NCBI GenBank assembly: GCA_902766015.1
Contig: CACXCC010000137.1
Span: 1 to 49,179, forward strand
Direction: 5' to 3'
Source: an uncultured Veillonellaceae bacterium
GTDB lineage: Bacteria > Bacillota > Negativicutes > Selenomonadales > Selenomonadaceae
Length of the DNA: 49,179 nt
The position numbers were made by a program, and so were the translations under genes. Positions within the stretch are counted from its first letter, which is position 1; the number at the start of each line of letters is the position of its first letter. The notes under the pieces were generated by a model. That model was not told where the DNA came from and did not search any database. It saw nothing but the letters and a program-made list of their open reading frames with translations. This document shows, piece by piece, positions 8,927 through 42,638 of the stretch.

Positions 8927-10282
8927 TTGCGGATCGTTGTTGTCGGAGCCGGTAAATTGGGCTATAGTATCGCGGAACTGCTGTCGAGGGAGCAGTTTGA
9001 CGTCATTGTCATCGACCGTGAGGAGAGTCAGCTCGAAGCGGCCAAGAATACGCTTGACGTTCTTACGGTCTTTGCGAACGGGGCAAGCCCGATCACGATG
9101 GACGACCCCGATATCCGCGAATCGGATATCCTCATCGCCGTAACGGGAAGCGACGAAGTCAACATGGTTTCCTGTATTCTCGCGAAGAAACACGGCATCC
9201 GTCATACGATCGCGCGCATCCGCGATATGCAGTTCATGTCCGAAGCCCGCGAGTACCTCAAGAAAAATTTTGACATTGACCTCATGCTGAACCCGGAGCT
9301 CATTACGGCAAGTGAAATCAACCGTATCCTCATGACGCCGGCCGCGCTTGATGTCGAGGATTTTGCACACGGGCGTATCCGCCTGTTCGAGACAAAAGTC
9401 CGCCGTCATTCGCCGCTTGCGAATGTACCGCTCAAAGACATCAATATGCCGAAAGGCGTGCTCGCAGGCCTCATTTCACGCGATCATCATATGATTATCC
9501 CGCACGGCGATGACTGCCTGCTGCCGCACGACAATGCGTATTTTATCGGTGTACCGGAGGAGATCGAGAAGTTCAGTCAGAATTTCGTCCAGCGCGACGC
9601 GCGCAAACTCCATCGCGTCATGATCATCGGAGCCGGGCGCGCGGGGCGGTATCTCGCGCCGATGCTTGAAAAACAGGGCGTTTATGTCAAAGTCATCGAC
9701 AAGGACCGCGAACGCTGCCGCCTGCTCGCCGAAAAACTCGAAAACGGTATCGCAGTCTGCGGCGACGGGACGGATATTGACCTCCTCATGGAGGAAGGCG
9801 TCGCGGAAGCGGATGTCGTCGTTTGTTTGACGGAAGACGACAAACTCAATCTCATGCTCGCCCTGCTCGCACGTCACTTGTCGGGGAATCGTACGCGTAC
9901 GGTTGTGCGCGTTTCGCGGAATGAATACGTCGAGCTCATGGAAAAAGTCGGCGTTGACGTCGTTCTTTCGGCGCGTCTGTTGTCTGCGGCCGAAGTGCTC
10001 GCGTTTGCGCGCCGCGGCGGCGTTGTTTCGGTTTCCCTGCTCGAAGGAGCCAAGGCCGAAGCGGTCGAAGTTATCGTCCAGGACGGCGCGCCTGTCGCGG
10101 GAAAACGGCTTATGGATGTCAAACTGCCGCGCGAGGTACTCGTCTGTGCCTACGTTCGCGGCGACGGAGCCGCGGTGATCCCGAACGGCATGACGGTTCT
10201 GCAGCCCGGCGACCGGACCATCCTCTTTATTCAGACGCAGGGCGCGCAAAAGGTCATGAAGTACTTTAAAGGAAAGGGGTAA
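8927..10282 (+). CDS. trkA: Trk potassium uptake system regulatory protein TrkA
   Basis: The 451-residue product has two RCK-type repeats. Each has a nucleotide-binding Rossmann motif (IVVVGAGKLGYSIAELL at the start and MIIGAGRAGRYLAPML near residue 230) and a C-terminal ligand domain. It is the cytoplasmic gating ring that binds NAD(H)/ATP and controls TrkH. The start is a TTG at 8927 preceded by GGGGCGGAG, giving the conserved glycine-rich motif at the very N-terminus. It is followed within 6 bases by the first trkH, so the three trk genes form one operon. Confidence 0.93.
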   Translation: MRIVVVGAGKLGYSIAELLSREQFDVIVIDREESQLEAAKNTLDVLTVFANGASPITMDDPDIRESDILIAVTGSDEVNMVSCILAKKHGIRHTIARIRDMQFMSEAREYLKKNFDIDLMLNPELITASEINRILMTPAALDVEDFAHGRIRLFETKVRRHSPLANVPLKDINMPKGVLAGLISRDHHMIIPHGDDCLLPHDNAYFIGVPEEIEKFSQNFVQRDARKLHRVMIIGAGRAGRYLAPMLEKQGVYVKVIDKDRERCRLLAEKLENGIAVCGDGTDIDLLMEEGVAEADVVVCLTEDDKLNLMLALLARHLSGNRTRTVVRVSRNEYVELMEKVGVDVVLSARLLSAAEVLAFARRGGVVSVSLLEGAKAEAVEVIVQDGAPVAGKRLMDVKLPREVLVCAYVRGDGAAVIPNGMTVLQPGDRTILFIQTQGAQKVMKYFKGKG

Positions 10283-39537: not shown

Positions 39538-40626
39538 ATGAACCGGATTGCAACACCGATTCAACTATCGCATTTACAGCCGAAAAACCGTCTGATCCGC
39601 TCGGCGGTACACAGCTTTCTGGCGGATAAAAACGGCTTCATGACGGAAGCCGAATATTCGCTGTACGAAACGCTTGCCGAAAGCGGCATCGGTACGGTCA
39701 TTACGGGTCATTGCTGCGTCGCCGAAGGCGGACGTGCCAATGACGATCAGATTAACATTTACGACGACCGCTTTATTCCGCAGTTTACGGAGGCGGCAAA
39801 ACGCGTTCATGCACACAGTGCACTCTTTATCGCGCAGATCAACCATGCGGGACCGCGCGCGATTAACACGGACGATCCGGCTGACGTCAGCCCGAGCATC
39901 CTGAAAAAAGGTCATCGTCAAACCCGTGCGATGACGCTTGACGAAATCCATGCCGCCGAGCAGGCGTTCATTGACGCGGCTCTGCGTCTGCAGAAAGCCG
40001 GCGTTGACGGAATTCAGGTTCATGCCGCGCATTCGTATCTGATTTCGCGTTTCCTCGACCCGTTCTTTAATGTACGCACGGATGAATACGGCGGTACGCG
40101 GGAGAACCGGTTCCGCATGCTAGAAACGGTCATTCGCGGCATTAAGGAAGCCTGTGGCACGGATTTCCCGGTGCTCGTCAAAGTCAACGCGGACACGAAA
40201 GCCGAAGACACAGCGTCCTATCATGAGGACATGATCGCGCTCTTGCAGCGCATGCACGAACTCGGCGTTGAACTCGTCGAGTTTTCCGGTGCCGACTTCA
40301 TTCATCAGCCGCGCGGCTCGAAGCTTTATTACCTCGACCTTGTCCGTGACATCAAAGCCCATGTTCCCGAAGAACCCGTCAGCCTCGTCGGCGGCGTGCG
40401 TTCGCGCGAAGACATGGAAACGGTACTTGACGCCGGCATTGACATGGTGTCACTCGGACGACCGCTTATCGCCGATCCTGCCTTTGCCGCCAAGGCGCTC
40501 GCGTCGGACGAACCGTCCATCTGCATTTCCTGCAGCCGTTGTTTTGCCCTGCCGCATCTCCATCCGGGCATTCGCTGCATCTGGGCCTGGAAAGAGGAAA
40601 AGGCGCGTCAAAAACAGGAAAAATGA
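39538..40626 (+). CDS. Old-yellow-enzyme family NADH:flavin oxidoreductase with C-terminal cysteine cluster
   Basis: A 362-residue FMN TIM barrel. VHAAHSYLISRFLDPFFN, DEYGGTRENRFR and GGVRSREDMETVL are typical of the OYE/2,4-dienoyl-CoA reductase group. The C-terminus has CISCSRC followed by GIRC, a four-cysteine pattern like the 4Fe-4S site of the dienoyl-CoA reductase branch. The FAD/NAD(P)-binding domains normally following are absent, so this is a short form that would need an outside electron donor. AGGAGG precedes the ATG. The substrate is unknown. Confidence 0.9.
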   Translation: MNRIATPIQLSHLQPKNRLIRSAVHSFLADKNGFMTEAEYSLYETLAESGIGTVITGHCCVAEGGRANDDQINIYDDRFIPQFTEAAKRVHAHSALFIAQINHAGPRAINTDDPADVSPSILKKGHRQTRAMTLDEIHAAEQAFIDAALRLQKAGVDGIQVHAAHSYLISRFLDPFFNVRTDEYGGTRENRFRMLETVIRGIKEACGTDFPVLVKVNADTKAEDTASYHEDMIALLQRMHELGVELVEFSGADFIHQPRGSKLYYLDLVRDIKAHVPEEPVSLVGGVRSREDMETVLDAGIDMVSLGRPLIADPAFAAKALASDEPSICISCSRCFALPHLHPGIRCIWAWKEEKARQKQEK

Positions 40627-40686
40627 GTCAAAGTATGAGTAGTTAACAGACAAAAGAATTATTTTACATTTTTTATAGATTACAAG

Positions 40687-40715
40687 TTGACATGAGTTTT
40701 TTCCCGTGATATGAT
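40687..40715 (+). promoter_or_regulatory. Promoter of cstA
   Basis: TTGACA (40687-40692) and TATGAT (40710-40715) with a 17-base spacer. The transcript would begin near 40722, about 160 bases before cstA. Confidence 0.8.
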
Positions 40716-40721
40716 ACAGAT

Positions 40722-40827
40722 CAACGGACAATCCCGCACCACAATACATTTGTGGCGGCGGACCTGAGAATGTACAGCCGGAATCATCATTTGTACCCCG
40801 TTCAGGCATAGCCCGGAACGGGATTTT
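40722..40827 (+). promoter_or_regulatory. Structured cstA leader ending in an intrinsic terminator
   Basis: The leader holds a CCACAA/TTGTGG hairpin (about 40738-40754) extended by CCGC/GCGG, a GTACA/TGTAC hairpin (about 40772-40796), then CCCGTTC (40797-40803) and GAACGGG (40816-40822) followed by ATTTTTATT, an intrinsic terminator inside the 5' UTR. AACGG near 40724 could pair with CCGTT of the terminator's left arm, giving an alternative structure. This is the layout of a transcription attenuator or riboswitch controlling cstA. No known class is recognised. Confidence 0.55.
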
Positions 40828-40884
40828 TATTGCTGTGCGTTCTTTGTTATTGTTTGTAGTAATAAGGAAGGGAAGGAATCATCT

Positions 40885-42549: not shown

Positions 42550-42602
42550 CGTTGATCATAAACCATTAACCCTATAACCATTCAATAGAATAAATCCATT
42601 GT

Positions 42603-42638
42603 CCCCGTATCCGCCGTTCCGGATGCGGGGATTTTTTT
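42603..42638 (+). terminator. Terminator of cstA
   Basis: CCCCGTATCCG (42603-42613) pairs with CGGATGCGGGG (42620-42630; one G-T pair), followed by ATTTTTTTG. Confidence 0.9.

Follow-up and report, generated by a model that had tools for sequence, protein, structure and literature searches.

The cstA locus and its promoter and terminator

The window, by which we mean the whole stretch of 49,179 nucleotides analysed here, is one contig of a 2.04-Mb Selenomonadaceae genome. It carries a cstA gene located downstream of a gene for a flavin oxidoreductase (Table 1). Since cstA is followed by a strong terminator of its own, the gene is probably transcribed alone. The import of pyruvate and peptides has been reported for the CstA protein of E. 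coli (PMC5847655, PMC7730263). The window CstA scores 278 bits against a model of the E. coli-type pyruvate symporter, which is far below the cut-off of 1188.

Table 1. Features at the cstA locus (positions refer to the window)
Feature	Position	Strand	Details
Flavin oxidoreductase gene, upstream neighbour of cstA	39538-40626
cstA promoter	40679-40715	+	TTGACA 40687-40692, 17-nt spacer, TATGAT 40710-40715
Predicted 5′ untranslated leader of cstA	40722-40884	+	Position relative to promoter
Hairpin P1	40734-40761	+	CCGC-A-CCACAA / UUGUGG-CG-GCGG, high predicted probability
Extended P2, candidate antiterminator	40763-40806	+	40763-40768 (CCUGAG) with 40801-40806 (UUCAGG)
13-codon ORF MYSRNHHLYPVQA*, doubtful	40770-40811	+	Read from sequence; weak ribosome-binding site
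Hairpin P2	40772-40796	+	GUACAG ... UUUGUAC, high predicted probability
Intrinsic terminator	40797-40831	+	Stem 40797-40803/40816-40822, U-rich tail 40823-40831
12-bp hairpin directly upstream of ribosome-binding site	40840-40869	+	Arms 40840-40851/40858-40869
cstA, 554 aa	40885-42549	+	Pfam CstA, E 2.4e-154
Strong terminator after cstA	42601-42632	+	-23.6 kcal/mol

An earlier sequence-only reading of this DNA had placed a consensus promoter and, about 60 bases before cstA, a strong intrinsic terminator at the locus, and both were recovered. The promoter goes beyond chance: it agrees with the consensus at 11 of 12 positions and has a TG before the -10 region. Judged from the promoter sequence, the transcript would start at about position 40722, some 7 nt past the -10 region. 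Such a start is supported by the block TTACAAGTTGACA around the -35 region. Of 80 related cstA loci from a single scan, 22 have exactly this block; several of the 80 come from near-identical species, so that the loci are not independent. Moreover, many relatives (among them L040, L061 and L065) have a conserved TCTGAAAATTACTTCTT immediately before the cstA promoter, and this element may be a binding site for a protein. We take this motif to resemble part of a CodY box.

The terminator (CCCGTTC/GAACGGG, -14.7 kcal/mol, followed by the tail ATTTTTATT) lies between the predicted transcription start and the start codon, as is generic for attenuators, and 62 nt separate the end of its stem from the cstA ATG. 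The plus strand of the window contains 18 terminator-like sites of -14 kcal/mol or lower, whereas three Markov shuffles had 1, 4 and 7 of them; the resulting p for a chance terminator inside the 160-nt leader is ~0.01. Thus, the terminator is also beyond chance. It might simply be unregulated, stopping read-through from the flavin oxidoreductase gene and lowering cstA expression by a constant factor. Indeed, a terminator scan and reading of the sequence uncovered no terminator-like hairpin between 40626 and 40797. However, the cstA promoter is located upstream of the terminator, so that cstA's own transcript must cross it, and we regard a plain terminator as unlikely.

Predicted alternative folds of the leader

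All fold energies given here refer to naked RNA at 37 °C, and the p-values compare the leader with shuffled sequences rather than with real leaders. The two hairpins noted in the sequence-only reading, P1 and P2, are predicted with high probability, but their stability is at the level of shuffles: without the terminator, the leader containing P1 and P2 is no more stable than chance, as 14% of dinucleotide shuffles fold equally well. The whole leader has a folding z-score of -3.2, for which the terminator is mainly responsible. The previously proposed antiterminator, a pairing of AACGG (40723-40727) with CCGTT, has to be dismissed. It is a 5-bp run, 71% of the shuffles have one as long, and forcing it costs 8 kcal/mol (-27.8 vs -35.9 kcal/mol).

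A different candidate antiterminator, which was absent from that reading, encloses P2 and excludes the terminator fold. When forced, this extended P2 fold reaches -32.2 kcal/mol at full length, a gap of 3.7 kcal/mol to the terminator fold (-35.9 kcal/mol), and it is predicted to dominate at RNA lengths of 88-94 nt. Its strength is only marginally unusual against shuffles (p 0.03-0.08). Both this marginal strength and the chance-level stability of P1 and P2 speak for a plain terminator. A further hairpin that had escaped notice, with 12 bp, is located between the terminator and the cstA start codon, and the region that contains it is predicted to be more stable than shuffled sequence (p 0.0025). 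Alternatively, the P2 region (40766-40778) can pair with 40832-40844, which includes part of the 5′ side of this hairpin (-19.5 kcal/mol). According to these fold predictions, the hairpin or the pairing with the P2 region may affect translation or stability of the read-through RNA.

The leader also contains a short ORF, which runs across P2 into the terminator loop, where it stops. A ribosome stalled on this ORF would cover the 5′ arm of the terminator and thereby attenuate transcription. The ORF has two adjacent His and two Tyr codons. However, few codons are repeated, the start signals including the ribosome-binding site are weak and, by eye, reading frames for leader peptides are not conserved in the cstA leaders of the relatives. 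Attenuation mediated by a ribosome is therefore highly improbable.

The sequence-only reading had raised the possibility of a riboswitch or attenuator that matches no known riboswitch class. The latter statement was confirmed, because a search of the window leader against Rfam 15 with gathering and permissive thresholds gave no credible family match. In an unrecognised riboswitch, P1 and P2 would together make up a metabolite-binding aptamer and thereby influence whether extended P2 or the terminator prevails. The leader is compact, has two competing predicted folds that are close in energy and matches no known family, all of which would suit this model. However, apart from the terminator the leader is no more structured than shuffles, and no conserved loop nucleotides are demonstrable. 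Furthermore, BLAST searches in 60 relatives, all from other genera, did not find the leader and returned short fragments only, and this family-level comparison revealed no conserved covarying aptamer. At family level, the leader does not pass the check that the sequence-only reading itself had set, namely conservation in relatives. The fragment from the source genome (G000:C117) looks like another terminator that shares this tail. A metabolite-binding leader is thus quite improbable, and the proposals of a ligand-binding riboswitch and of a new riboswitch class for cstA are unsupported. We consider it very improbable that an undescribed ligand-sensing RNA, with this leader as its first example, controls CstA in place of the T-boxes and ANTAR-type hairpins of sister lineages.

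Leaders of cstA and glnA in related bacteria

The 80 related cstA leaders were sorted by a script: 37 have a promoter without a terminator, 18 a T-box, 15 a hexaloop hairpin with a terminator, two a promoter and a terminator only, and eight fall into none of these groups. The window leader belongs with the promoter-plus-terminator-only kind. Control of termination is not required for cstA, as the 37 loci with a promoter but no terminator illustrate. However, 33 of the 80 loci have terminator-containing T-box or hexaloop leaders, and the frequency of such regulated types before the cstA genes of relatives argues against a plain terminator.

T-boxes (RF00230) precede cstA in Anaerovibrio, Megamonas, Propionispira, Pelosinus and other genera. 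For six of them, directly upstream of cstA, Rfam gave confirmation, with E about 1e-20 in L070, L079 and L081 and, under the gathering score, with E 5e-14 to 1.3e-12 in L029, L045 and L060; the other 12 of the 18 calls are based on the T-box sequence alone. By alignment position, the specifiers are CUC (Leu) in L070, L079 and L081 and AUC (Ile) in L029, L045 and L060; this reading is our own, and in L045, L070, L079 and L081 the codon is followed by C instead of the usual A. A search of titles and abstracts gave no paper that describes a T-box or riboswitch upstream of cstA for this family. T-box sequence and specifier loop are missing from the window leader, and RF00230 does not match it.

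In 15 cstA leaders from Selenomonas, Mitsuokella, Anaerovibrio and further relatives (L007, L009-L015, L017, L021, L024, L034, L040, L061 and L065), a hexaloop hairpin follows soon after the predicted start, and all of them contain a terminator. The loop reads AAYGRN, with A at position 1 and G at position 4 in 15 of 15 cases, whereas the stem differs between leaders by compensated changes (TCGC/GCGA, TTGC/GCAA and CGAC/GTCG). The hairpin agrees with the consensus AGCAANGRRGCUY of ANTAR targets and the A1/G4 rule (PMC3369931). The pattern GCAANGRRGC on its own is too short to be informative. No consistent second hexaloop was found in these leaders; thus, the cstA leaders of the relatives, too, fall short of the strict EutV-type definition.

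A covariance model of the relatives' leader (R1) matched the 15 cstA loci, gave otherwise weak matches and had no match in the window. A second model (R2) consists of the hairpin alone and was built from cstA leaders only. Its best genome-wide matches include leaders of the glutamine synthetase gene glnA in several Selenomonas, Mitsuokella and one further genus. A match of R2 in the window (8994-9015, minus strand) lies near the start of a plus-strand ORF, no terminator was seen, and it was attributed to chance. In the glnA leaders, the hairpin (TATGGC-AATGGA-GCCATA) shares sequence with the 5′ arm of an intrinsic terminator (GCCATACAG...CTGTATGGCTTTTT), an arrangement known from ANTAR targets. 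Predictions of ANTAR targets already include leaders close to glutamine synthetase genes (PMC3369936).

In each of the 13 ANTAR-bearing genomes examined, from 10 genera, the hexaloop is present before glnA. Leaders of this kind are L179, L184-L187, L192, L193 and L196-L208; L208 has a G at loop position 1, and the source genome's own leader (G000:C18, L206) reads GGC-AACGCA-GCC. For the genera g9 and g13, no ANTAR match over the cut-off was among the matches listed, and their readable glnA leaders have no hexaloop. The few script matches in these two genera are located at a greater distance upstream, where the sequence looks coding or precedes the apparent promoter. Based on the match to the consensus and the co-occurrence of ANTAR regulator and glnA hexaloop, the family's ANTAR regulator very probably targets the hexaloop. 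A GTATAC palindrome is conserved upstream of the glnA -35 region (L184-L187, L196, L200 and L206) and is perhaps a repressor or activator site. In one Anaerovibrio genome (G072:C106:61070 and 67254), the ANTAR gene is located about 6 kb from cstA, and in the source genome and in G010 the two genes are on different contigs.

The window leader could also be a diverged target of an RNA-binding antiterminator such as the ANTAR regulator. The source genome encodes a single ANTAR response regulator, which adjoins a HisKA_2 kinase, and the apparent target hairpin of this regulator is present before glnA here and before cstA in the 15 relatives. However, the A1/G4 hexaloop hairpin is absent from the window cstA leader, model R1 does not detect it, and neither hairpin of an ANTAR-type pair, the second of which overlaps the terminator, was found in it. 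The sole hexaloop with a 3-bp stem lies in the 3′ arm and tail of the terminator, and the only ANTAR-like loop sequence, AACGGA at the 5′ end, is unpaired. A diverged target is the least probable of the readings considered.

Proposed regulation of termination and comparison with known systems

We lean towards the view that the 5′ leader of cstA is a lineage-specific transcription attenuator. This part of the sequence-only proposal is supported by the promoter, the terminator, the competing fold and the terminator-containing leaders of many relatives. The analysis establishes the sequences of promoter and terminator together with two predicted folds that exclude one another and are close in energy, and we infer that termination is regulated. 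The promoter block kept in relatives, the above-chance terminator between start and gene and the competing fold, which is dominant in shorter RNAs and close in energy at full length, count in favour of an attenuator. The marginal strength of the alternative fold, the failure to find the leader in relatives and the 37 related loci with a promoter but no terminator count against it.

In the attenuator, transcription would start near 40722 and the RNA would by default form the terminator, at which many transcripts would end. A trigger that favours extended P2 or masks the 5′ arm of the terminator would allow the polymerase to read through into cstA. By analogy with the relatives, the likeliest trigger is the supply of amino acids or nitrogen, because their cstA devices belong to types that respond to uncharged tRNA or to an ANTAR regulator shared with glnA. 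Pyruvate, which the sequence-only reading had named as a CstA substrate, is not favoured as the signal, since the RNA devices of the relatives' cstA genes are of kinds tied to uncharged branched-chain tRNA or to the ANTAR regulator.

If termination is regulated, the type of cstA leader would differ by lineage within the family while part of the promoter is shared. The types would be Ile/Leu T-boxes, the ANTAR-type hairpin shared with glnA, the orphan leader of the window, or none. CstA of these fermenters would then be tied to amino-acid and nitrogen supply and not to carbon starvation or pyruvate, and the leaders would form a small set on which this idea can be tested.

Three known systems are comparable. 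T-box leaders of relatives precede the same gene and are terminator-controlled, but T-box sequence, specifier loop and Rfam T-box match are all missing from the window leader. ANTAR-target leaders of the EutV/NasR/AmiR type are seen at glnA, and also at cstA of Selenomonas and Mitsuokella. They share with the window leader a promoter, a small hairpin near the 5′ end and a terminator before cstA, whereas the window leader has neither the A1/G4 hexaloop nor a match to their covariance model. In contrast to transcription-terminating riboswitches, the window leader showed neither a conserved aptamer in the family-level comparison nor an Rfam match; what it has in common with them is a terminator fold that competes with a candidate antiterminator of similar predicted energy.
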